A stretch of DNA of 22,614 nucleotides from a virus: positions 1-22,614 of IMG/VR virus record IMGVR_UViG_3300003873_000071; one strand, written 5' to 3'. The position numbers and the translations under genes were made by a program. Below are positions 4-16,515 of the stretch, one piece after another (the first letter of the stretch is position 1; every line of letters starts with the position of its first letter). The notes under the pieces are model-generated. The model did no database searches. It was not told where the DNA came from and worked only from the letters and a program-made list of their open reading frames with translations.

Positions 4-37
4 ATTATATCATAACTTACATTAAACCGAGTTTAAA
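4..37 (-). promoter_or_regulatory. Phage promoter copy 1 (extended -10 with two TTTAA boxes)
   Basis: On the minus strand this reads TTTAA, 6 nt, TTTAA, 12 nt ending in ATGA, then TATAAT. The same layout with identical spacing occurs six more times in the window. It faces left and should drive the gene beyond the left edge. The distal TTTAA box contains the TAA stop codon of the preceding polymerase-half gene. Confidence 0.8.
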
Positions 38-2048
38 TTAGTGATTTTTTTACTTTATTTGGAAATTTCCACCCTCTATTTTCAACTAATTTATCCAATG
101 AAGCAAATATCGTCTTATTAAACATAGTTTTTTTATCTATTATTTTATCAAAGCCAAATTCTTTTATAAATGGAATACAAGATTTTTCATCTAAATATCC
201 TATTACATTTGAATTAAATGATAAACCAGATTTATTAATATATAAATATTTCATTTTAGTTTTATTTTCTATATATCTATATTTTGTTTCTAACTTATTT
301 TTTTCTATTATTTTATTATATATTAGACTAGCTCTTACATGTATTGGTACTCCTTTATCTGTTAATGAATAATTTAAAAAATCATCAATAGTTTTTTGCT
401 TTTCTTCAAAAAGAACACTTCTTTTATTTTTATACTTAATATAATTTTGTTTAGCTTCTTTTATTCTTTTTTCAGATTGTTTTTCAAATGTAACATTTTT
501 TGGAAATGCTATTTCATTATAATCAAGTGAATAATAATATTTCTTTATATCAGTATAATATTTACTAAAATCATTTTGTGTTTTAGTAAGGATTATTTGT
601 AACCCTTTTTTTAATTCTTTTCTAATTACAGGTGGTATATTTGTTTTTTTCAAATTTAATCCGGCCATTTTAATATAACCCTCATGATAAATTGTACCTT
701 CTGAATCTATTACATTCATAGCATAATTTCTCATTCCATTTACAATACCAGATGATGCTATAATTTCTCTTTCAAGTTCTATTACCTCAGGTCTTTTAAA
801 GTTATATATATTACCAATATAGTCTATATTCTTTTTATTAAATTCTGATATTTTAGGTTCTAATTTATCAGCAATATATTTAGCAGTATTAACATAATCA
901 TTCTTATTTAATTTTTTTTGATTGTGTAATTTATCTATAACATCTTCTAATACTATATATCCTGAATCAGTATCCCAAAGAGCTATTATATTTTTTTTAG
1001 ATAGTCTTTTTTGTAATTTATCCATCCAGTATAAATCTAATAATCTACCTATAGCAGTTATTGATCTAGCTATTTCTAATTTATATAATATAAAATATTT
1101 ATTACCTCCTGCTCCATAAAAACTATTTAATGCGAGTTTTTTTGACATTTGACCTGCATTATAATATACTACTAATTTATTATAATCTTCTATTATTTTT
1201 TCTAACTCTTCAATTGATTTATTTCTATTTTCTTCATCAATTTCATTAATAAATTTGCATTTTTTGTTATTTTTTATATCATGTATATAATCTTTATACA
1301 ATTGGGCTTTTTTAGAATACATTTTCATTTTCTTCTTGTCTGTTTTTCTAGCATTATATATGTCATCCACTAATTTAGATATAAATGTAATATACGAGGT
1401 ATCAAATATATCGCCAGTTGGCGATATATGCATTTTATATTTTTTTAATATAGGAGTGACTTCTTTTTCTATTTCAGCAGTATTATTGATAAGTCTATTT
1501 ATTGTACTTGGAATAGCTTTATTATCATAATAATATTTTTTTACAATATCTTGTATTTCCTTAGGAGCCTTTGAATAAGGTATATGTGAGTCATATGCAT
1601 AATTACAAGCTCTCAGAATACTTGGGTATAGTGAAGCAAAGTCAAATGAAACTACCCATTTATAAAAACCTGGATTAGCTCCCACAGTACCACCTAAAAA
1701 ATCTGGATAGTTATCATATTCAGAATTAGAAGTAAGATTAAAACTACTATCATTTGTAATAGATTCAACTTCTTCAATATCTCCATAAAATTCAGGTGTT
1801 CCATATTTATTCTTATAGCATTCGCAATATATTTTCTGATTCCATGGTGTAACTGTTCCTATTACAGAATCTAAATTACAATTATATAATTTACATAAAG
1901 CTATACTTGTATTTAATATAGATGTTTTCTTATCAATTTTTGCTAAAATATCAACATCCTGTATATTATAATCAATAAATTTTTGATAATTTACAGAATA
2001 TAAAGATTCAAGATTTATCGATTTTTTACTAATTCTTTTTATTTTCAA
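33..2048 (-). CDS. 43B: DNA polymerase, C-terminal part (gp43B: Exo III plus polymerase domain)
   Basis: This is the C-terminal two-thirds of a T4-like family B replicative DNA polymerase. Visible motifs, in order: Exo III YNIQDVD at residues 27-33, motif A DFASLYPSI at 136-144 with the metal-binding Asp136, motif B KKLALNSFYGAGG starting at 303, and motif C DTDS at 359-362. These align well with T4 gp43 from its Exo III onward. Exo I and Exo II are absent here and lie in the separate gene at 4170-5255, so the two products must associate to rebuild a proofreading polymerase. The start is TTG at 2048, 6 nt after AAAAAGG; no in-frame ATG occurs until about residue 206, well past motif A. The promoter at 2066-2099 serves this gene alone. 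The C-terminus ends in KKSLI, which could be a clamp-binding tail, but this is uncertain. Residues 1-11 have no T4 counterpart. Confidence 0.93.
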   Translation of the reverse strand: MKIKRISKKSINLESLYSVNYQKFIDYNIQDVDILAKIDKKTSILNTSIALCKLYNCNLDSVIGTVTPWNQKIYCECYKNKYGTPEFYGDIEEVESITNDSSFNLTSNSEYDNYPDFLGGTVGANPGFYKWVVSFDFASLYPSILRACNYAYDSHIPYSKAPKEIQDIVKKYYYDNKAIPSTINRLINNTAEIEKEVTPILKKYKMHISPTGDIFDTSYITFISKLVDDIYNARKTDKKKMKMYSKKAQLYKDYIHDIKNNKKCKFINEIDEENRNKSIEELEKIIEDYNKLVVYYNAGQMSKKLALNSFYGAGGNKYFILYKLEIARSITAIGRLLDLYWMDKLQKRLSKKNIIALWDTDSGYIVLEDVIDKLHNQKKLNKNDYVNTAKYIADKLEPKISEFNKKNIDYIGNIYNFKRPEVIELEREIIASSGIVNGMRNYAMNVIDSEGTIYHEGYIKMAGLNLKKTNIPPVIRKELKKGLQIILTKTQNDFSKYYTDIKKYYYSLDYNEIAFPKNVTFEKQSEKRIKEAKQNYIKYKNKRSVLFEEKQKTIDDFLNYSLTDKGVPIHVRASLIYNKIIEKNKLETKYRYIENKTKMKYLYINKSGLSFNSNVIGYLDEKSCIPFIKEFGFDKIIDKKTMFNKTIFASLDKLVENRGWKFPNKVKKSLI
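1406..1429. repeat. Perfect 11-bp inverted repeat inside gp43B
   Basis: Arms 1406-1416 and 1419-1429 (ATATATCGCCA and its complement) are separated by only 2 nt. The palindrome has an unusually GC-rich centre for this genome. It lies inside the polymerase coding sequence, around the codons for SPTGDIF. Function unknown. Confidence 0.6.
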
Positions 2049-2065: not shown

Positions 2066-2099
2066 ATTATATCATAACTTCCATTAAACGAAGATTAAA
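2066..2099 (-). promoter_or_regulatory. Phage promoter copy 2, driving gp43B
   Basis: Same TTTAA / TTTAA / ATGATATAAT layout as the other copies. The distal box contains the TAA stop of the GIY-YIG gene (2095-2097). The -10 ends at 2066, giving a leader of about 10 nt that carries AAAAAGG before the TTG start at 2048. It lets the downstream polymerase half be transcribed independently of the endonuclease and of the upstream half. Confidence 0.8.
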
Positions 2100-4056
2100 T
2101 TTTATCTAAATATCCTTCTCCAATACTTTCTAAATAGCACCCAATAGCCCATTCAACGTTATATTTTTTTATACGTATAAATGTTTTAGCGTGGCTTGGA
2201 TTAAATGGATTTTCTTTTGAAGTACACCTAAGATATCCCCATAAATGCATAGTTCTCATATCTATCCCTCTAACTGTTTTTATAATTTCATCTCTTGAAT
2301 TTCTAATATTATATAGAGGTACTTTTCTTTGTGCATAAAATCTACCTTTATTCCATCCTTTAGATAGGTATTCTTCTAATTTATCTTTATCAATGAACTT
2401 ATTTACTTTATTTTTAGTTATCCAAACTCGTCCAACACTGTAAGAAACAAATTCTCCTGATAAATATCTAGGGTCATTTTTATCAATTAATATTTTATAG
2501 TTATTTTTATCTTTAGCTAGTAATTTATTCTTATGAACACCAACTAATTCTCCTGAAATATATCTAGGATCGTTTTTATTAACTTGAAATGTATTTCCAT
2601 CTTTATCTTTTACATTTACTTTACCTTTAATAACAAAATTTAGTTCTCCACTTAAATATCTTGAATCATTTTTAGAAATACATATAACATTTCCATCTTT
2701 ATCTTTAACATTTATTTTACCTTTCATAATTGATACTAACTCTCCTGATAAATATCTAGGGTCATTAGTTGAAACTCTCATTGTATTTCCATCTTTATCT
2801 TTAACAGAAACACATTTTGTACCTAAATGAACTAATTCGCCTGAAAGATATCTAGGGTCATCTTTTTTAACTGAAAATATATTATTATTTTTATCTTTAA
2901 CAAGACATCTACCTTTAGCAACATGAGTTAATTTACCAGAAAGATATCTAGAGTCGTTAGTTGAAACTCTCATTGTATTTCCATTTTTGTCTTTTACTGA
3001 GATTTTATTTTTATGGATACTGACTAATTCTCCTGACAAATATCTTGGATCATCTACATCAACCTGAAATGTATTGCCATCTTTATCTTTAACGACAGTT
3101 TTACCAGTTCCACACGTTACTAATTCGCCTGAAAGATATCTAGGATCGTCTTTTTTAACTGAAAACCATTCACCTTGTTTATTTTTAACAAGATAATGGC
3201 CTTTCATTGCTGAAACTAATTCTCCTGATAAATATCTTGGGTCATCGATATCAACTTTAAAAATCTTTCCATCTTTATCTTTAACAGATACTCTATCTTT
3301 CATGACTGATATAAGTTTACCAGAAAGATATCTTGGATCGTCTACATTAACTTGGAATGTAGACCCATCTTTATCTTTAACAGATACTCTACCTTTCATA
3401 ATTGATACAAGTTCTCCTGATAAATATCTTGGATCATCTACATCAACTTGAAATATATTTCCATCTTTATCTTTAATGATAGTTTTACCTTTCCCAATAA
3501 AAATTAATTCTCCTGATAAATATCTTGGGTCAGTAGTTGAAACTCTCATTGTATTTCCATCTTTATCTTTAACGATAACTTTATTTTTACCAATAAAAAC
3601 TAATTCTCCTGATAAATATCTTGGATCATTAATATCAACCTGTAAAATTTTTCCATTTTTATCTTTAACCATTACTTTGTCTTTCATGATCGATATAAGT
3701 TCTCCTGATAAATATCTTGGGTCATCATTAAAAACTCTTGTAATATTTCCATCTTTATCTTTAACTAAAATACATCCTTTCATGCCACCTCTACCACCTA
3801 AACAAAGATTATACGTGTCTTTCCTTTTTACAAATTCTTCATTGACAAGCTCTTCTTCTTTCTTGTACATTTCCTTTTCTGAATCTAAGGTAGAAAGAAT
3901 TTCTTTCTTGAAATTCTTCATCCCATATTTCTTCTGAGCTCGAAGAATTAATTTCCCTGAGCCCATATACTTATCATTTAGATCTGTAGTGCTATGAGCA
4001 CCTATATAGATCTTGCCATTTGTTAAGTTTGTGATTTTGTAAACTGTGTAGTACAT
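2095..4056 (-). CDS. GIY-YIG (Seg-like) homing endonuclease with fourteen 32-residue repeats
   Basis: Residues 1-90 are a GIY-YIG nuclease domain of the T4 Seg type: YTVYKITN, then GKIYIGAHST with the YIG motif at 17-19, the YMGSGK segment at 30-35, and an acidic helix around 65-75 that should supply the catalytic Glu. Residues 96-543 are fourteen contiguous 32-aa repeats of the form VKDKDGN..V..DDPRYLSGELV..KGK. Residues 544-572 resemble the ENK..ID...LEEYLSKGW.KGR module common at the C-termini of phage homing endonucleases; the repeats look like diverged copies of it. The gene sits exactly between the two halves of gene 43, the classic place for a free-standing homing endonuclease that fractures an essential gene. 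Start ATG is preceded by AGGAG at good spacing. Known Seg proteins are about 200 aa, so this one is roughly three times larger. Activity and target are inferred. Confidence 0.85.
   Translation of the reverse strand: MYYTVYKITNLTNGKIYIGAHSTTDLNDKYMGSGKLILRAQKKYGMKNFKKEILSTLDSEKEMYKKEEELVNEEFVKRKDTYNLCLGGRGGMKGCILVKDKDGNITRVFNDDPRYLSGELISIMKDKVMVKDKNGKILQVDINDPRYLSGELVFIGKNKVIVKDKDGNTMRVSTTDPRYLSGELIFIGKGKTIIKDKDGNIFQVDVDDPRYLSGELVSIMKGRVSVKDKDGSTFQVNVDDPRYLSGKLISVMKDRVSVKDKDGKIFKVDIDDPRYLSGELVSAMKGHYLVKNKQGEWFSVKKDDPRYLSGELVTCGTGKTVVKDKDGNTFQVDVDDPRYLSGELVSIHKNKISVKDKNGNTMRVSTNDSRYLSGKLTHVAKGRCLVKDKNNNIFSVKKDDPRYLSGELVHLGTKCVSVKDKDGNTMRVSTNDPRYLSGELVSIMKGKINVKDKDGNVICISKNDSRYLSGELNFVIKGKVNVKDKDGNTFQVNKNDPRYISGELVGVHKNKLLAKDKNNYKILIDKNDPRYLSGEFVSYSVGRVWITKNKVNKFIDKDKLEEYLSKGWNKGRFYAQRKVPLYNIRNSRDEIIKTVRGIDMRTMHLWGYLRCTSKENPFNPSHAKTFIRIKKYNVEWAIGCYLESIGEGYLDKI
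2428..3771 (-). repeat. Fourteen 96-bp in-frame tandem repeats
   Basis: Exactly 14 units of 96 bp encode residues 96-543 of the endonuclease with no length variation. The core DPRYLSGEL is nearly invariant. Variation is concentrated at the residues following DG (for example TMRVST, TFQVDV, FSVKK) and just after GEL. Some variants recur in non-adjacent units (TMRVST in units 3, 9 and 11; FSVKKDD in units 7 and 10), suggesting shuffling by recombination. Confidence 0.95.
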
Positions 4057-4080
4057 ATAGTACTCCTATAATTTTAAATT

Positions 4081-4161
4081 TATAAGAGTGTCTGTTGGGA
4101 CTATATTAGAAGTGTATCTGAGTCCCAACACAGAGCAGATACACTTCTAATATCTCTTATA
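4081..4161 (-). promoter_or_regulatory. Interlocked inverted-repeat element in the leader of the GIY-YIG gene
   Basis: Three perfect inverted repeats lie in 81 nt. An 8-bp outer pair is 4081-4088 with 4154-4161. A 10-bp pair is 4093-4102 with 4121-4130 (TGTTGGGACT). An 18-bp pair is 4103-4120 with 4136-4153. The last two interlock (A-B-A'-B'), with B filling the loop of A. With almost no linker nucleotides, both stems cannot form in full, so the RNA would be bistable or a partial pseudoknot. It lies between the stop of the upstream polymerase half and the AGGAG of the endonuclease gene, about 14 nt before that site. Role unknown; control of endonuclease expression or a homing-associated structure are possibilities. 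Confidence 0.75.
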
Positions 4162-4169
4162 TATTCTAT

Positions 4170-5255
4170 TTAAACATCTGAAATTTCATCAATTTCTGTT
4201 AACTCTTTAACTTTAATTATTCTCCCATCTTTTAGTTTAATATTATCAGTTTCTTTTAATGTTAAAATTTCACCATTCTCTAGTTCAATCTCATATAGAT
4301 AATCTTCTGAATACTGGAGTTTTCCTGAGATACCTTCAAGTTTAGCAATACTGTCTAATTTATAAGAATCGGGAGTTTTAGAATATCTAAATTTTTCATA
4401 AAAATCGAGTAAATCTATAAAATAATATCCTAAAGGTTCTACGCGCAATAAATCTGATTTAGATTTATTAAAATTATTAGGTTTATTTATTTTATAATAA
4501 TGTGATATTATACTTCCAACTTTATTTAATATTTTATTTTCAATAGTTTTTTCATCTTCTTTTGGTATTTTACCATTTTTTTCTATATAGTTATCTTTTA
4601 TAATTTTAAACAATCTGTTAATTAAAAACGGGTTATCAAATCCAGATGAGTTCCATCCAATTAAAGCATCTACCTGAATTTTATTTACTAATTTAAAAAA
4701 ATCTATAAGCATTGTATATTCAGATAAGCATTTTATATATTCAACATTATTTTTAGATGGTGTATAATCTTTTAATCCAAATACAAAAAATTTATCTAAT
4801 TTATCTGAATATATAGTAATAGAAGTTACTGAAGTACTTCCATCTAATTTTGGAAAACCACCTTTGCCTCTTTTTAATTCACCGCTTGGTAATACTATTG
4901 TACCATTAAATCCAGTTTCAATATCAAAATATGATAAATGTAAATTATTATCTTTATCATTAGAAAATTCTTTAAATCTATATTGATCTTCTGGAGATGC
5001 ATTAGAGTATATTGGTAAATTTAATTCTTTATATCTATTAATTGAATCTCTATATGATTTAATAGAATTATTAACAATTACTTTTAATTTTTTTGATCTA
5101 GTCTTATAATCAAGAAAATCTGAATCTTTTCCATCAGATTCAGTAAAATATTCAAATTTATAATTTTTTACTTCATCAATATGTCTTACACCATCTTTAT
5201 AATATATACTGACTATTTTATTTTTATAAGGAAAAACTCTAACATATGATTTCAT
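4170..5255 (-). CDS. 43A: DNA polymerase, N-terminal part (gp43A: N-terminal and 3'-5' exonuclease domains)
   Basis: This is the N-terminal third of a T4-like family B DNA polymerase. Exo I is DIETGFNG at 111-118 (Asp111, Glu113), and Exo II is GWNSSGFDNPFLINR at 200-214 (Asn202, Asp207). The segment DLLDFYEKFRYSKTP...LDSIA matches the T4 region just after Exo II. Similarity ends at GKLQYSED (residues 311-318), where T4 gp43 continues to Exo III; here Exo III is in the gene at 33-2048. The final 43 residues (319-361) do not match T4 polymerase. They have the pattern YEIELENGEI, IKLKDGRI, KELTEIDEI, resembling the block-B part of Hint/intein folds. The start codon shares one base with the gp44 stop (TAATG), so the two are translationally coupled and share the promoter at 6213-6246. 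Confidence 0.9.
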   Translation of the reverse strand: MKSYVRVFPYKNKIVSIYYKDGVRHIDEVKNYKFEYFTESDGKDSDFLDYKTRSKKLKVIVNNSIKSYRDSINRYKELNLPIYSNASPEDQYRFKEFSNDKDNNLHLSYFDIETGFNGTIVLPSGELKRGKGGFPKLDGSTSVTSITIYSDKLDKFFVFGLKDYTPSKNNVEYIKCLSEYTMLIDFFKLVNKIQVDALIGWNSSGFDNPFLINRLFKIIKDNYIEKNGKIPKEDEKTIENKILNKVGSIISHYYKINKPNNFNKSKSDLLRVEPLGYYFIDLLDFYEKFRYSKTPDSYKLDSIAKLEGISGKLQYSEDYLYEIELENGEILTLKETDNIKLKDGRIIKVKELTEIDEISDV

Positions 5256-6190
5256 TATATTTCTTTCATTTTACATTGTTTCATAATTTCTATAACTAAA
5301 GATAAAAAATTTATTTCTTTTGATATACTTATATTTGTTTGATATGCATATTCTGATAATATAATAATACAATCAGGAATAGATTTAGTATCAATAAATT
5401 TATCAATTATATTATACAAATGTATTATAGCATTATCATAATTAGATATTTCTTGAACAGATTTTCTAATTAATGGAAATGATTTCGATTTCATAGAAGA
5501 TATTAATTCATTATATTTTATCATTTCAGATTCATTTTTTAATACAACTTCATTATTTATAATAGAAGATTGAATTACCATTAATATATTTCTCATATCT
5601 GGAAAATAATTTTTAACTAATATACCTATTTCTTTTTTATCATACGCTATATTTTCTTTATCTAATATTTTTAGAAGTGATTGAAAATATATTTTAATCA
5701 TTTTTAATTTTTCTTTGTCTGAAAATGAAAATGAAATTCCGCCACCTGTTCTTGATAAAAGGGGACTTACAATTTTATCTTTATAATTTGTATCAAATAT
5801 AAATCTAACAGTTTTAGAATATTTTTCTATAATATTTTTTAAAGCATTTTGAGCTGCTGAAGATAATCCATCAGCTTCATTTACAAAACAAATTTTTACT
5901 GGATTACCTACTAATGATGCTCTTGAGGCAAATTTTTCAACCTTATATCTAATTATATCTATAGATGTATCAAGAGAACCATTAATTTCAATAAAGTCAG
6001 CATTGAGCTCTTTTATTATAATTTTTGCTAAGCTTGTTTTTCCACAACCAGCAGGACCATAAAATGTTAAATTTGGAATATCACCTTTTTCTATCATATC
6101 TTTAATAGGATTTATAATACGTGATGGTAATATAATATCATTTAATACTTTAGGTCTATATTTTTCAACTAACAATTTTTCTTCTATCAT
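5255..6190 (-). CDS. 44: Sliding-clamp loader large subunit, AAA+ ATPase (gp44-like)
   Basis: AAA+ clamp-loader ATPase that should load the phage processivity clamp for the gene 43 polymerase. Walker A is GPAGCGKT at 45-52, and Walker B is ICFVNEAD at 100-107. A sensor-1 segment follows (DTNYKDKI, Asn135), then the SRC-type arginine finger LLSRTGG with Arg147. Length (311 aa) matches T4 gp44 (319 aa). Two departures from consensus are visible: the Walker B Asp is Asn104 (NEAD rather than DEAD), and the Cys of the SRC motif is Thr. It is the first gene after the promoter at 6213-6246, has AAAAGGAT as ribosome binding site, and is coupled to gp43A. T4 gene order (44, 62, 43) is echoed, but no gp62-like gene is recognisable between it and the polymerase. 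Confidence 0.9.
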   Translation of the reverse strand: MIEEKLLVEKYRPKVLNDIILPSRIINPIKDMIEKGDIPNLTFYGPAGCGKTSLAKIIIKELNADFIEINGSLDTSIDIIRYKVEKFASRASLVGNPVKICFVNEADGLSSAAQNALKNIIEKYSKTVRFIFDTNYKDKIVSPLLSRTGGGISFSFSDKEKLKMIKIYFQSLLKILDKENIAYDKKEIGILVKNYFPDMRNILMVIQSSIINNEVVLKNESEMIKYNELISSMKSKSFPLIRKSVQEISNYDNAIIHLYNIIDKFIDTKSIPDCIIILSEYAYQTNISISKEINFLSLVIEIMKQCKMKEI

Positions 6191-6212
6191 TGATTTATCC
6201 TTTTAATATTAT

Positions 6213-6246
6213 ATTATATCATAACTTACTTTAAACTAAGATTAAA
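6213..6246 (-). promoter_or_regulatory. Phage promoter copy 3, driving gp44-gp43A
   Basis: Same two TTTAA boxes and ATGATATAAT with identical spacing. The distal box contains the TAA stop (6242-6244) of the 160-aa gene upstream. Expected start is about 7 nt downstream of position 6213, giving a leader of roughly 15 nt before the gp44 ATG. Confidence 0.8.
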
Positions 6247-6724
6247 TTTTTAAAATTTTTATTAACTGCATAATTTTATAGAATAAATAAAAAAGTACTT
6301 CTGATTCTTTAATTTTATCTTTAGCATCAGGTTTCTTTTTTAATATATATACTCCTGATATTGGATTTATTTTATTAAAATAAACTAAATTTATTATATC
6401 ATCTGTTGGTAAACAAGAATATTTATTAACATCATTTTTTATGATATTTTTTATATCTAATATTTCTCTAGAAAACATATAAAAAGCCTTTGACTCAATA
6501 ACTGTTTTTGCATCTTTTTTAATATTTAGAAATATTATGTATACTAAATAAGTATTAATAGTTCTATTCGTTTTTCTAAACAAATATGGGCTTAATAATT
6601 GACTGCAAATTATCCTTTCTATTTTTGGTATATATATGTTTTTATCAGAATAATTATAATTGTTTAAAGAAAAATGTTTTTTTAATTTATAAGCGATATT
6701 AAGATATTTTTCTTCACGAGTCAT
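6242..6724 (-). CDS. Hypothetical protein, 160 aa, between clamp loader and recombination genes
   Basis: I do not recognise this protein. It is lysine- and isoleucine-rich and probably mostly helical, with no signal peptide and no clear membrane segment. Notable segments are a basic stretch LFRKTNRT near residue 50 and a Pro-containing NKINPISGVYILKKKPD near 115. It has its own promoter (6743-6776) and a good AAAAAGGA ribosome binding site, and ends inside the gp44 promoter. Its place beside gp44 is where T4-like phages often keep clamp or clamp-loader small-subunit genes, but I see no convincing similarity to gp62 or gp45. A replication accessory role is inferred only from position. Confidence 0.75.
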   Translation of the reverse strand: MTREEKYLNIAYKLKKHFSLNNYNYSDKNIYIPKIERIICSQLLSPYLFRKTNRTINTYLVYIIFLNIKKDAKTVIESKAFYMFSREILDIKNIIKNDVNKYSCLPTDDIINLVYFNKINPISGVYILKKKPDAKDKIKESEVLFYLFYKIMQLIKILKI

Positions 6725-6742
6725 TTCTATTCCTTTTTCAAA

Positions 6743-6776
6743 ATTATATCATTTTTTACTTTAAATATAGTTTAAA
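6743..6776 (-). promoter_or_regulatory. Phage promoter copy 4, driving the 160-aa gene
   Basis: This is the most divergent copy in the spacer (AAAAA in place of AAGTT), but it has the same TTTAA, 6 nt, TTTAA, 12 nt, TATAAT layout and the TGA extension. The distal box contains the stop codon (6772-6774) of the upstream gp33-like gene. The leader would be only about 12 nt, just enough for the AAAAAGGA site. Confidence 0.75.
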
Positions 6777-7068
6777 AAAGAGATTTAATTTTATCTTTTT
6801 CTAAATAATGTAATTCTTGAGCTTCTTTTTTTATGATATTAATAAAATTATTATCATTTTTTATAATTTCAATTAATTCTTCTAATTCAGTATCAGTTTT
6901 GATAGAGTATTCAATAATACTATCTATTAATGATATATTGTATTCCTTTGATATTAAATATATCCTGTTTAATATAACATTTTTACAAGATTCCTGGGTA
7001 TTATTTAATACTATTTTTTTAATTTTTGTTGTAGAATTTTTAGATGTGTTTGTTTTCAATAAATTCAT
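6772..7068 (-). CDS. 33: Probable late transcription co-activator (gp33-like)
   Basis: Small 98-aa protein with a basic N-terminal third. It then has a helical region: VILNRIYLISKEYNISLIDS, IIEYSIKTDTELEELIEII, and finally IIKKEAQELHYL. This resembles gp33-type late-transcription co-activators of T4-related phages, in which a short helical domain binds the RNA polymerase flap and ends in a similar EA..L..L segment. The C-terminus IKSLF could be a sliding-clamp-binding tail, as gp33 uses in T4. It begins directly at the gp46 stop (TAAATG) with GGGGA upstream, in an operon that also contains the gp55-like sigma factor, which fits the two working together. The assignment rests on pattern resemblance, so alternative identities remain open. 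Confidence 0.5.
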   Translation of the reverse strand: MNLLKTNTSKNSTTKIKKIVLNNTQESCKNVILNRIYLISKEYNISLIDSIIEYSIKTDTELEELIEIIKNDNNFINIIKKEAQELHYLEKDKIKSLF

Positions 7069-8778
7069 TTATTCCCCTTTAGTAATTTTTGTAAAATTAT
7101 TTTCTTTTTTGATTTCGTAAATTTGATCAAAAAACTCTTTGTCAAGCTGTCTATGAGATATAGTTATAATTTCTTTATTATTAAAATTATATTTTAAAAA
7201 ATCAAGAATTAACCCAACATTATCATTACTTAATGCTGAATCTACAAGTTCATCTAAAAGTAAAATATTTATTGAAAAACTATTACGAGCTTCTACTAAT
7301 TTAATAAAAGAAAATATAACAGCTAATGATAATCTCAATTTTTCTGAACCAGAAAAACTCATGTAATTTCTTTCTATGCCTCTTTCTAATATTTTAACTT
7401 CAAATATTTCATTAAAAACTATATTATATGGTATACCGAATTTTTCTAAATATTTATTTAGATACATATTAAATAATGGTATATATTTTATAAATATTTG
7501 TTTTTTAATTCCATTATCTGAGACTAATTCATTAATTATTTCTAATGATTTTCTATCTTTTTCTATTTTCCTTAGTTCTTCTTGAATTTGATTTTTTTCT
7601 TCAATGTAATTATCTAATTTATACGTATCTTCTTTCCATATAGTGTATTCTTTTATTTTAACTAGTTCATCTTCATTATATATTATGAGTGATTTATATT
7701 TATCTATATTAGATTGTATATTGTATTTATTATTAATTTTTTTTTCTAAATCATTTATTTTATTTTGCTTTACTTCTATATCAGATATTACCTCCTGGAC
7801 ACTCTGCTTAATCCCTGTGATGTTTGATTTAACATTGTTTATAGTATCATCATCTATCTTTATATTAACTATAGAGTCTAATTTAGAACATCCTATACAA
7901 TTGATAAATGTTTTCTTTAATGTAGTTTTTTTCTTAAACAGTGTTGTTAATTTTTTACCTTCTTTAATTAAATTACTTTTTTTAATATTAAGGTTAAAAA
8001 TTTCTGTTTTTAGAGTATTATATTCTTTAGTATATTCCTCTATATCTTGAAGTAATATTTTTAATTCTTTAATTTTATTATTATATTCTATTATATTACT
8101 ATTTATTTTATCTATATTAAAATTTCTTGAATTTTTTAAATCTTCATTTATTTTTTTTATTTCAGCAATATGTTTCTTCTCTTGATTTATTGCATTTATA
8201 ATATTTTTATATTGGTATTCTTTTTCTACTTTATTAGTACTTACTATATTATATCTTGCTTTACTTTCTAATAATAAATAATAAAGAATTTTTATATCTA
8301 ATATTTCTTCTAAAAAATTTTTTCTTTGACTTTTTGACATTGTAAAAAAAGATTTTGCTATTAATGTACTATCAAGTGAAATTAATCTAGTATAGGTATC
8401 ATAAGAAATTCCAAGAATATCTCTTTCTAATAATTCTTGTTCAGTTTGAATTCTATTATTAGATTCTATTTTTACATTATTTTTATATATTTCAAATATT
8501 TTAGGTGAATCACCCCTAATAATTTTATATTCTATATTATTTTTTTCAAATATTAACTTAACTAATAAATTAGATGAATTTGTAGAATTTATTAACTCAT
8601 TTATTTTAATGTTTTTTATTTTACCAAAAAGAACATAAGTAATAGCCATCATAGTAGAAGATTTACCTTCCCTATTATGACCTTTAATTAATGTCATTCC
8701 ATTCTTAAATTCGTATGTAACTGGTGAATTACCAAAACTTCTAAAGTTTTTTATTTCTATTGATTTTAATACTAGCAT
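7069..8778 (-). CDS. 46: Recombination endonuclease subunit, Rad50/SbcC-like ATPase (gp46)
   Basis: SMC-like ATPase partner of gp47; together they resect DNA ends for recombination-dependent replication. Numbered from the start chosen here: IKNFRSFG at 9-16, Walker A GHNREGKS at 33-40, a long coiled coil with a zinc-hook CIGC at 294-297, an ABC signature FSGSEKLRLS near 475 (SGS instead of SGG), Walker B ILLLDE near 505 with a D-loop DSAL, and a switch His (ISHRQ). Length of about 569 aa is close to T4 gp46 (560). The frame is open up to ATG 8796, but MLVLKSIEIKNF at 8778 follows GGAG overlapping the gp47 stop and matches the usual Rad50 N-terminus, so I prefer it. It is directly coupled to gp47 upstream and the gp33-like gene downstream. 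Confidence 0.92.
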   Translation of the reverse strand: MLVLKSIEIKNFRSFGNSPVTYEFKNGMTLIKGHNREGKSSTMMAITYVLFGKIKNIKINELINSTNSSNLLVKLIFEKNNIEYKIIRGDSPKIFEIYKNNVKIESNNRIQTEQELLERDILGISYDTYTRLISLDSTLIAKSFFTMSKSQRKNFLEEILDIKILYYLLLESKARYNIVSTNKVEKEYQYKNIINAINQEKKHIAEIKKINEDLKNSRNFNIDKINSNIIEYNNKIKELKILLQDIEEYTKEYNTLKTEIFNLNIKKSNLIKEGKKLTTLFKKKTTLKKTFINCIGCSKLDSIVNIKIDDDTINNVKSNITGIKQSVQEVISDIEVKQNKINDLEKKINNKYNIQSNIDKYKSLIIYNEDELVKIKEYTIWKEDTYKLDNYIEEKNQIQEELRKIEKDRKSLEIINELVSDNGIKKQIFIKYIPLFNMYLNKYLEKFGIPYNIVFNEIFEVKILERGIERNYMSFSGSEKLRLSLAVIFSFIKLVEARNSFSINILLLDELVDSALSNDNVGLILDFLKYNFNNKEIITISHRQLDKEFFDQIYEIKKENNFTKITKGE

Positions 8779-13386: not shown

Positions 13387-16300
13387 CTATTTTATATAGG
13401 CACTTCTATTTTCTTGAAATATACTCTTTTCTGAGAAAATATCTAATTTTTTATAAAAATATATAGTATTTTGTTTAATATTATTAGTTTTATTATTTAA
13501 TATTTCTTTTATATTACTATCAATAAATCCGAGTGCAGCTAATATACTATTAACAGTTATTGAAGTTATTGGAGTTGTTGGATTAATTGGATTAACTGGA
13601 TTAACTGGATTAATTGAATTAACTGGATTAACTGGAGTTGTTGGATTAATTAAATTAACTGAATTAAAAGAAAATGGATAATATACATGAAAATTCGATA
13701 CATTGAATTGAAGATTCAATGTATTGGATTTGCATATAAATTCATGAAATGAATTTATATGTTTAGATATTGACAGTACATTAATATTATTAATGTTTTT
13801 ACTGTCAGTGTCTAAAGAGAACTTAAGGGAAGAAATGATATTATTAGTAGGTTGAATTGGTTTACAGCTTAGTGTTCTGAAATCATCAGATAAATCAGCT
13901 GTTTTCAGAACACAAGGACAAGAATGATTGACATCATTCTTATCCTTAGAATTTTTTCTGTCAATAAAATTAAAGAATTCATTAATATCATCTAATTCAA
14001 TATCTAAATTATTATGTTTATTTTCATTATAGAATTTATTTAATATATCATCTTTATTCAAGGATTTATCGGAGTTCAAGGATTTATCGGAGTTAACTGA
14101 ATTATTAGAATTCTTATTAGAATATATTGATACATCATTAAAATATATTATTTCATCATGTATTCTTATCATTTTACTTTCATCATATTTTAAATTTCTG
14201 TTTTTTAATTCATTATTTAATTTGTTAAATTCTAATGTTGTAAATAAATGATTAAGAGATTTGAATGGATATAAAGTATTATTATTAGACTCTAAATAAG
14301 TATTAATTGCATTTAATTCTTTAGATAGATTATTATTAAATTCATTTAATACTAATTCTTTTTTTATAGCTTCTTGTATTTCATTTTTTTCATAATTCTT
14401 AAGTTCAAAATAATTAAATTCTTCTTTTATTAGCTCAAAAAATGCATTATTAGATGTTTTAACACCATTAGATATTAATTTAAGAAAATGAAATTTAGCA
14501 GCTCTTGAAAGAATATATTTTAATGTTTTTTTATCTATATCTACATTAATTCTTTTTATTATATTATTAACTGTATACTTTATTATTTCTTTTCTGTTAT
14601 TATAATATTTAGTTATATAATCTGTACAGAAATCTTTATCTTTGAATTCATCATGTATTATAGTATAAGCTGAATTAGATAGATCAAATGATGTGAAATT
14701 ATCTTTAATTAGTGTTTTTCTAACTCTTCTAGGTAACTGATTAAAAATATAATAAGTTCTATTTGTAAATTTTGATAATGTTGTTTTAATTATCATTTCT
14801 CCTGTTACAGGATTTATTAAAGAACATAATTTTTCTATAGCTTTTTTTTCTCTATAAAGTTTTTTTTCTTTTTTTGTCCATTTAACTTCAGAATGAAAAT
14901 CTATTAATTTAACACTAATAAATAACTTAATTAAATTATACTTATCATTTTTATTCAGTATTTTTTTATTATATAGTTTATTTAATACTAATATAATTTC
15001 TTTACCATATTGAACTTTATCTTTTGTATCTTGGAATTTATTAAATTCTATTATATGCTCTTTTATTTCATTAGGTATTATTCTTTTTATTACTCTAAGA
15101 ATATTACTTAATTCGCTTAATGATTTTTCTTTTAAACTAGCTAATGAATTATTCTTAATAAATTCTATATCATTAATTTTATTCATTGATTTTGTTTTGA
15201 ATTTATTATTTATTACTTTTTTTAATATTATTCTATACCCAGTAAGTACTGTATTTAATAGTTTATTTTTTATTTCTTTTAAATCATTGGGGGTATACTT
15301 AATTTGTTTATTAAAATACTTATTAATGTCATTATCAGTAAAAGTATTTATATTTATATTAAATTTCTCTATAATATAATTTAATTCGTTCTCAGATGCT
15401 GTATCTATATCAGGTAATTCAAAAATATCGTGAATTTTTTTATATTCATAAGTATATCCATATAATTTTTTATTTGTTAATACAGCTAATTCATGTACCA
15501 TTTCATGTTTTTTAATATCATGTAATTTAGATATTAATTCTTTATCTAATTCTAATAAATATTCCATAGCTGTTTTTTTAGATGAATTAGCTGGTCTATA
15601 AAAAATTGTTCCATCAAATTTAGTAGGATAAATTACTTTATTAGAATTATTATTATTTTTTTGAATTTCATTAATAGCATCTATTTTATCTTGATTTGAT
15701 GAATAATTATAATTATATGGATTAGTGTATTTTTCATCATTAATTTCTAAAGATATCTCAAACATATCTTCCATATATTCAGGTGTTAATGGGTTATTCA
15801 TTAATTTTAAAGTATTTACTAAAGAATCTGAAGTATACTGATAATTTATTATATCACACATTCTTACATTAAATTTATAAAAAGGTATTAATTCATCTCT
15901 TTTTTTTGAATTCAATGGATTTAATGAATCTAAGATATTTTCTTTATTATCAGTACATATAATAGGTGCTTCATAATTTATCTTAAAATTATTAATATTA
16001 ATTATTTTGTTCTCAGTACTACTATAAATAAATTTTTTATTTATAGATTTAAGTTTTCTTGATATAATTTTTTGATATTTTTTCTTATACCATTTAAGAT
16101 CTTTTTTATTAGTATATAAATCATATACTATACTTACTATTTTATCTTCAGAATTTTTAACAACAATATTATCTAATACATTATCAGATAATATTTTTGA
16201 TTTAGCAAAAGTACTACAACCTTTACCATCAATAGAATTACCTGTATGTACTTCACTAAAAAGTTTTTTGAATACATTTCTTACTGATTTATTTGATTTA

Positions 16301-16515
16301 TAATATCTTATATTTTTATTTTTATATGAAGTAGATAGAATATAATTGCCATCATATTTAGAAATACTTAATTCAGAATTATATATTTTATAAACATCAA
16401 GCATACCTTTAATACTATTTTTTATGTTCAAAGGATTATTTATTTTACCCTTTAATTCAGATAATATTATATTAATAAAATTTATATTCGGTACGTATGC
16501 ATAGGATGTTTTCAT
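13387..16515 (-). CDS. Putative superfamily A (TV-Pol-like) polymerase / primase-polymerase, 1042 aa
   Basis: No family is obvious at first sight, but three motifs appear in superfamily A polymerase order. Motif A-like is FDLSNSAYTII at 610-620 (Asp611), preceded by LPRRVRKTLIKDNFTS. Motif B/O-helix-like is SRAAKFHFLKLISNG at 670-684 (Arg671, Lys674). Motif C-like is IRIHDEIIYF at 783-792 (His786-Asp787-Glu788), preceded by a helix LFTTLEFNKLNNEL as in Pol A and T7-like enzymes. HDE rather than HDS favours a DNA polymerase over a T7-type RNA polymerase. The described TV-Pol family, thought to combine primase and polymerase activity, is the closest fit I know. The N-terminal 600 residues are lysine- and asparagine-rich and unassigned. 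The tail (800-1042) is low complexity, with NSDKSL and VNP/INP repeats. The ATG is only 5 nt from the -10 box, implying leaderless mRNA. It sits next to uvsY and may act in priming or origin replication. The function is inferred. Confidence 0.6.
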   Translation of the reverse strand: MKTSYAYVPNINFINIILSELKGKINNPLNIKNSIKGMLDVYKIYNSELSISKYDGNYILSTSYKNKNIRYYKSNKSVRNVFKKLFSEVHTGNSIDGKGCSTFAKSKILSDNVLDNIVVKNSEDKIVSIVYDLYTNKKDLKWYKKKYQKIISRKLKSINKKFIYSSTENKIININNFKINYEAPIICTDNKENILDSLNPLNSKKRDELIPFYKFNVRMCDIINYQYTSDSLVNTLKLMNNPLTPEYMEDMFEISLEINDEKYTNPYNYNYSSNQDKIDAINEIQKNNNNSNKVIYPTKFDGTIFYRPANSSKKTAMEYLLELDKELISKLHDIKKHEMVHELAVLTNKKLYGYTYEYKKIHDIFELPDIDTASENELNYIIEKFNININTFTDNDINKYFNKQIKYTPNDLKEIKNKLLNTVLTGYRIILKKVINNKFKTKSMNKINDIEFIKNNSLASLKEKSLSELSNILRVIKRIIPNEIKEHIIEFNKFQDTKDKVQYGKEIILVLNKLYNKKILNKNDKYNLIKLFISVKLIDFHSEVKWTKKEKKLYREKKAIEKLCSLINPVTGEMIIKTTLSKFTNRTYYIFNQLPRRVRKTLIKDNFTSFDLSNSAYTIIHDEFKDKDFCTDYITKYYNNRKEIIKYTVNNIIKRINVDIDKKTLKYILSRAAKFHFLKLISNGVKTSNNAFFELIKEEFNYFELKNYEKNEIQEAIKKELVLNEFNNNLSKELNAINTYLESNNNTLYPFKSLNHLFTTLEFNKLNNELKNRNLKYDESKMIRIHDEIIYFNDVSIYSNKNSNNSVNSDKSLNSDKSLNKDDILNKFYNENKHNNLDIELDDINEFFNFIDRKNSKDKNDVNHSCPCVLKTADLSDDFRTLSCKPIQPTNNIISSLKFSLDTDSKNINNINVLSISKHINSFHEFICKSNTLNLQFNVSNFHVYYPFSFNSVNLINPTTPVNPVNSINPVNPVNPINPTTPITSITVNSILAALGFIDSNIKEILNNKTNNIKQNTIYFYKKLDIFSEKSIFQENRSAYIK
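13571..13660 (-). repeat. Ten 9-nt tandem repeats (iteron-like)
   Basis: Ten consecutive 9-nt units of the GGATTAACT type (variants GGATTAATT, GGAGTTGTT, GAATTAACT, AAATTAACT) encode VNP/INP tripeptides in the tail of the polymerase-like protein. The order GGAGTTGTT then GGATTAATT occurs twice, pointing to a duplicated block. Such short tandem repeats resemble replication iterons, but they also maintain the reading frame. Confidence 0.85.
13698..13947. repeat. Cluster of five perfect or near-perfect hairpins inside the coding region
   Basis: Five inverted repeats lie within 250 bp. Arms: 13698-13707/13715-13724 (10 bp, ATACATTGAA); 13733-13745/13749-13761 (13 bp, 3-nt loop); 13771-13785/13789-13807 (8 + 7 bp around a 4-nt bulge); 13872-13882/13903-13913 (11 bp, GTGTTCTGAAA); and 13914-13928/13933-13947 (14 of 15 pairs, 4-nt loop). 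The last two abut exactly. All are within the open reading frame of the 1042-aa protein. Confidence 0.85.
14057..14092 (-). repeat. 18-nt tandem duplication
   Basis: Two exact copies of an 18-nt unit (starting TTCAAGGATTTA) at 14057-14074 and 14075-14092 encode a duplicated NSDKSL hexapeptide in the low-complexity linker after motif C of the polymerase-like protein. Confidence 0.9.

Follow-up and report, generated by a model that had tools for sequence, protein, structure and literature searches.

A GIY-YIG homing endonuclease of a T4-like phage with a 14-unit repeat array that probably forms an expanded DNA-binding region

We analyzed a 22,614-nucleotide stretch of viral DNA (IMG/VR record IMGVR_UViG_3300003873_000071), hereafter called the window. 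Between the two halves of its DNA polymerase gene (gene 43) lies a gene for a GIY-YIG endonuclease that carries 14 phased copies of a 32-residue unit, and this repeat array is real, exact, and old. The protein is probably a free-standing homing endonuclease of a T4-like phage in which the part that binds DNA has grown to a string of 14 beads.

Endonuclease gene and its site in gene 43

The window is a 22.6-kb virus contig with T4-like genes, including a clamp loader with a Gp44 lid and a UvsW-type helicase, and it encodes both parts of a B-family DNA polymerase. Open reading frame (ORF) calls with Pfam and PHROG annotation of both flanks place the endonuclease gene between the gene 43 halves, in agreement with the first-pass annotation of this DNA. 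The features of the locus are as follows.

4170-5255, minus strand: upstream half of gene 43 (gp43A, exonuclease part of DNA polymerase B), from ORF call, Pfam, and PHROG
2095-4056, minus strand: GIY-YIG homing endonuclease ORF, 653 aa, ATG start (phrog_12434, E 9.7e-110; phrog_314, E 9.3e-38; SegE_GIY-YIG, 26 bits)
3787-4056, minus strand: GIY-YIG catalytic domain, aa 1-90 (Pfam SegE_GIY-YIG at 5-77, GIY-YIG at 3-73)
2431-3774, minus strand: array of 14 32-residue units, aa 95-542, from unit spacing and an AlphaFold2 hairpin plus short helix per unit
2338-2430, minus strand: C-terminal "WIT..K.....L..Y...GW..GR" module, aa 543-573, a motif shared with relatives and predicted as strand-strand-helix
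2095-2337, minus strand: C-terminal tail, aa 574-653, modeled at low confidence
33-2048, minus strand: downstream half of gene 43 (gp43B, polymerase part), TTG start, from ORF call, Pfam, and PHROG, with an identical split in the related contig L091

The nuclease end of the protein is as first described. Besides the Pfam and PHROG matches, Foldseek equates the catalytic domain with that of I-TevI (1mk0) at a probability of 1.0, and the model has a pLDDT of 86-94 across most of residues 1-90. The N-terminal 146 residues are ~44% identical to SegC-type proteins. The array that follows corresponds to repeated stretches in the phrog_12434 match, 13 of them at the E value given above, and bears out the description of a nuclease carrying an amplified module. 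A further 111 residues follow the array; the tail (aa 574-653) has no family match in Pfam. An ORF of 153 aa also runs antisense through the first units (3476-3937, plus strand), but it arises from the repeat and is therefore no evidence for a gene.

In the 31-kb contig L091, whose gp43A is 64% identical, gene 43 is divided at the same point; a 47-nt spacer separates the halves, the ~2-kb endonuclease insert is absent, and no 32-residue unit was found on the contig. Because the same split occurs there without the insert, the endonuclease probably moved into a gap that already separated the gene halves. On the simplest reading of these two contigs, gene 43 was split before the endonuclease arrived; loss from L091, instead of gain in the window phage, could also have produced this arrangement. 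The catalytic domain and the clean absence of the gene at the same site in L091 are both features of free-standing, Seg-like GIY-YIG endonucleases. Rfam detected no intron in the window. A comparable case is Aeromonas phage 25, where the endonuclease seg43(25) accompanies a split gene 43; phage 44RR has an untranslated insert (PMC2988022).

The tail of gp43A (4170-4310, minus strand; YLYEIELENGE...KLKDGRIIKVKEL) and the head of gp43B (2010-2048, minus strand) lie outside the stretches that align to the intact polymerase L069. By eye, they resemble split intein remnants without splice-site blocks, and the same is seen in L091.

The unit array and its predicted fold

The 14 units are each exactly 32 residues long, as first reported, with all 13 spacings equal to 32 (aa 95-542; window positions 3774-2431 in our phase), and Tandem Repeats Finder returns a 96-nt period for the same array. 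This copy number is the largest seen in the unit family. The motif DPRYLSGEL had been called invariant. The exact string occurs in only 9 of the 14 units, and the residues that are invariant are K5, K7, D18, R20, Y21, S23, and G24.

We modeled four units with AlphaFold2 from a register-correct alignment of 94 four-unit pieces, which gave a pLDDT of 94.4 and a pTM of 0.56. Each unit shows a strand at residues 2-5, a turn, a strand at 11-15, a helix at 19-23, and a short bridge at 27-28. The full-length model has the same pattern in 14 of 14 units at lower confidence (pTM 0.26) and with no fixed relative placement. Since pTM values of 0.26 and 0.56 leave the bead-to-bead arrangement uncertain, we call the units beads; a regular wrap of beads around DNA may occur. 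The bead itself is confidently predicted as a β-hairpin with a short helix of 4-5 residues, and we infer an exposed hairpin face from the strand alternation. The first-pass annotation had set independent hairpins with no DNA-facing surface against a role in DNA reading. Separate hairpin beads are indeed predicted, and with them comes a putative DNA-facing surface.

Searches of the PDB returned no match to the unit by sequence and no convincing match by fold (best E 0.075; best VIA-align Z 2.3). Among viral predicted structures, the best matches are mostly phage homing endonucleases. We rejected the Pfam matches of the array to Myosin_N, Cupin_3, and Imm26, which are short, vary between units, and reflect a mere likeness of hairpins. 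A calcium loop at D-K-D-G-N was rejected too: just 43% of units have an acid at position 8, and the predicted structure there is the hairpin turn. The family alignment has no conserved Cys or His in its 32 unit columns. Pfam finds no NUMOD in the window array; in relatives, NUMOD3 follows the arrays. When the unit was compared with the GW..GR module, the hhalign score was not above that of column-shuffled controls; the topology and phase of the two look alike.

Variation, selection, and recombination among units

Column statistics were taken from 339 distinct units of the family. The frame residues D6, G9, D18, R20, S23, G24, E25, and L26 are 85-97% conserved, and positions 2, 4, 12, and 14 are 88-96% hydrophobic. 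Entropy reaches at least 2.6 bits in 11 of the 32 columns, about a third, so variation is not confined to a few positions as had been thought. Asp and Glu account for 0-2% at the alternating positions 1, 3, 5, 11, and 13, of which 1, 3, 11, and 13 are variable and position 5 is K or R in 86% of units; positions 8 (in the turn) and 15 are exceptions at which acids are present. When size-matched samples were drawn (18 units, each from a different one of 18 proteins), acid-free columns made up 78% of the variable columns, compared with 5/16 and 5/19 in the catalytic domain. Units carry a mean net charge of just +0.7. Positions 3-13, 11-13, 1-13, and 28-30 covary, and the hypervariable positions lie on one predicted face, most of them alternating with the putative buried core.

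Over all pairs of the 14 window units, pN is 0-0.05 and pS is 0.4-1.6 at the frame residues D18, G24, and D6, and pN is about equal to pS at the variable positions. The frame is under purifying selection, and there is no sign of diversifying selection at the variable positions. Uniformly spread, neutral variation, which the first-pass annotation had also counted against DNA reading, is thus found only in part: the variable positions are near-neutral, whereas the frame is constrained.

Diversity among units within an array is ~0.9 of that between arrays, which indicates that the arrays are old and not fresh duplications. A 40-nt identical run is common to units 3 and 11; such runs exceed a codon-order-shuffled null (p ~0.013). 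Identity between units does not fall with distance along the array, and left-right agreement between units is weaker than odd-even agreement. The long identical runs in non-adjacent units and the weaker left-right agreement suggest mosaic recombination between units. The earlier proposal of unit shuffling thereby gains modest support from the identical runs and the lack of decay with distance. Our searches found no orthologue pair at 71-96% identity over full arrays and no set of orthologues at one site.

The unit family across phages

Scans of viral contigs with two-unit alignments as queries detected 138 and 36 stretches that encode the unit. Once near-identical proteins were merged, these came down to 86 ORFs with 1-14 units, some of them fragments; the family sequences are related, and the counts that follow are not independent. 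Spacing is exactly 32 in 292 of 325 neighboring unit pairs. The unit is found on several GIY-YIG subtypes and on HNH enzymes, with catalytic class assigned through simple sequence patterns that left 16 ORFs unclassified, most of them GIY-YIG by eye. The profile phrog_12434, labeled HNH endonuclease, covers the unit and is matched by 18/18 aligned proteins. There is no Pfam or NCBIfam model of the unit, its core motif strings were not found in the searched literature, and the module itself seems unnamed. No plasmid matches were found. At least two metagenome-assembled (MAG) contigs among the bacterial genome matches listed carry the unit, both on GIY-YIG endonucleases, and from the sequences among the matches listed the family appears nearly confined to phages.

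Krischvirus ECD7, Vibrio phage VmeM-32, and Acinetobacter phage SH-Ab 15599 have HNH endonucleases with a single unit lying between pieces of gene 43. Other phage homing endonucleases thus contain the module in one or few copies, which bears out the first-pass description of a single module amplified here. These enzymes share the module and the interrupted gene with the window protein and differ by their HNH domain and single unit. In relatives, the unit also adjoins NUMOD3 or zinc-finger-like modules. A module that moves between unrelated catalytic domains and sits beside such modules is not catalytic.

The GW..GR module is common at phage endonuclease ends and follows the array in many relatives. 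Proteins with 3-5 units commonly keep a tail of ~60 aa with GW..GR, sometimes with NUMOD3. After long arrays the tail is usually short: 0-8 residues in 7 of the 8 other proteins with at least 8 units and a full-length N-terminal region, the exception being L038, and the window protein is likewise an exception. Among the 58 proteins with a recognized catalytic domain, 12 have at most 16 residues after the array, including most of those with at least 8 units. Tails tend to be shorter where units are more numerous (rho -0.46, uncorrected for relatedness), and the array therefore seems to replace the usual binding tail.

Some other contigs have related layouts. In L063, L064, L019, and L057, GW..GR-type modules are themselves in tandem, sometimes mixed with 32-aa units. 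L013, from the same metagenome as L091, has an endonuclease island (4518-8668): the gene for a close array endonuclease immediately precedes an NrdB-like gene, and a further endonuclease-like ORF comes next; the GIY-YIG part of the array protein is seemingly cut off by frame.

Comparison with known systems

The closest precedent appears to be the T5orf172 (GIY-YIG) endonucleases, in which CapR/DUF723/DUF4397 zinc fingers are repeated as class V beads on a string and repeat recombination changes the bead copy number (PMC10448857). Like the window protein, they combine a nuclease with several small bead-like modules. Their beads are zinc fingers, whereas those of the window array are predicted β-hairpin/helix units without zinc ligands, phased at 32 and numbering up to 14; the unit columns have no conserved ligands of the CxxC...CxC type, which rules out the zinc-finger bead identity. 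The T4 Seg endonucleases such as SegC, seg43(25), and the window protein are all free-standing GIY-YIG endonucleases, and SegC has NUMOD3 and an I-TevI-like DNA-binding domain without the 32-residue unit. I-TevI shares the catalytic fold and an extended, modular DNA-binding region. However, it has no repeat array, and its binding region consists of a zinc finger, a helix, and a helix-turn-helix.

TALE and PUF arrays resemble the window array: their units, repeated in tandem, are also a little over 30 residues long and combine variable positions with a conserved frame. They are helical superhelices with two or three code positions, in contrast to predicted β-hairpin beads with ~11 variable positions. 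We rejected identity with either, as the predicted hairpin and helix of 4-5 residues match neither the two-helix TALE repeat nor the three-helix PUF repeat of ~36 residues, and 11/32 columns at 2.6 bits or more do not fit variation at two TALE code positions.

A probable DNA-binding array and its alternatives

Several features point to DNA binding by the beads. Catalytic domains with no relation to each other have exchanged the module, it sits beside NUMOD3 or zinc-finger-like DNA-binding modules, and long arrays usually replace other C-terminal parts. The depletion of acids at most variable positions fits a surface that faces nucleic acid. We infer DNA contact, the contacting face, and a part in the choice of target site. 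In such a protein, the N-terminal domain would cut, and the beads would follow the target DNA close to the gene 43 junction, either in a row or wound around it, each with its exposed hairpin face against the DNA. Affinity and selectivity would then be the sum of many weak contacts. The GW..GR module and tail could be a further anchor; because the window protein keeps its 111 residues after the array, array and tail may both bind here. Recombination between units would grow or shrink the copy number and change the footprint quickly. Homing endonucleases need new sites to persist, and a self-recombining, expandable bead array common to unrelated nucleases would, if this is true, allow quick evolution of phage target sites. 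Being common and lacking a Pfam or NCBIfam name, the module lends itself to a first structure determination in complex with DNA.

Other accounts fit parts of these data. The array might be a spacer or ruler with little or no DNA contact, set between the nuclease and a C-terminal anchor (GW..GR and the tail), as an extended counterpart of the I-TevI linker, which has a distance role (PMC2988022). The rigid spacing of 32, the extra C-terminal part of the window protein, and the tails kept by relatives with few units agree with a ruler, but no anchor would remain in the 12/58 proteins that end soon after the array, and acid depletion is unexpected of a plain spacer; on balance we find this unlikely. 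We are more doubtful that the extra copies are a by-product of repeat recombination, with one or two units at work and the rest drifting at exposed positions. Copy numbers from 1 to 14, pN close to pS at variable positions, and mosaic units suggestive of recurrent recombination would follow from such drift. Against it, 14/14 units are intact, the frame is under strong purifying selection at high synonymous divergence, within-array diversity is nearly that between arrays, and the avoidance of acids is not neutral.

The first-pass annotation had proposed a TALE- or PUF-like reader, in which each unit reads a fixed short DNA stretch through two or three variable residues by a simple code. Exact phasing, mosaic units, and covarying hypervariable positions on one predicted face are in keeping with that proposal, which we nevertheless abandoned as very improbable: the predicted fold is one of beads and not a helical superhelix, about a third of the positions vary instead of two, pN is not above pS overall, and the searches found no orthologue set at one site to which a code could be fitted. 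TALE repeats and zinc fingers read C through Asp or Glu. The near absence of acids at most of the variable positions thus speaks against a code of either style, and any reading code for this module is speculation. An undescribed β-type class of modular reader, in which the exposed face of every hairpin contacts a set number of base pairs, is rather unlikely; if it exists, gain, loss, or exchange of units could give the enzyme a new specificity. Scarcely credible is that the beads bind RNA, single-stranded DNA, or a replication protein at the fork. The single-unit HNH relatives do also sit in polymerase genes, yet among the matches listed all contexts are nuclease-linked, restricted to phages, and next to known DNA-binding modules.

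Other elements in the window

Two hairpin features lie upstream of the endonuclease gene.

4103-4153, minus strand: 18-bp perfect inverted repeat whose loop, TGTTGGGACT, is complementary to the 10 nt after the stem (X-Y-X'-Y')
4062-4089, minus strand: predicted 10-bp hairpin pairing the AGGAG ribosome-binding site of the endonuclease gene

With the loop pairing, a perfect inverted repeat of 18 bp and one of 10 bp overlap in an X-Y-X'-Y' order at 4085-4165 on the minus strand, just after gp43A, and the stretch 4057-4175 has a fold z of -5.7. The overlapping repeats are a candidate pseudoknot or pair of alternative hairpins; their sequence was not found in other viral contigs. Hairpins that pair the ribosome-binding site delay translation of T4 intron endonucleases.

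Elsewhere in the window, an Asn-rich ORF of 1042 aa (13387-16515, minus strand) has no PHROG match. NPVNP is repeated in tandem close to its end, and it also contains an HDEI motif that recalls A-family polymerases.
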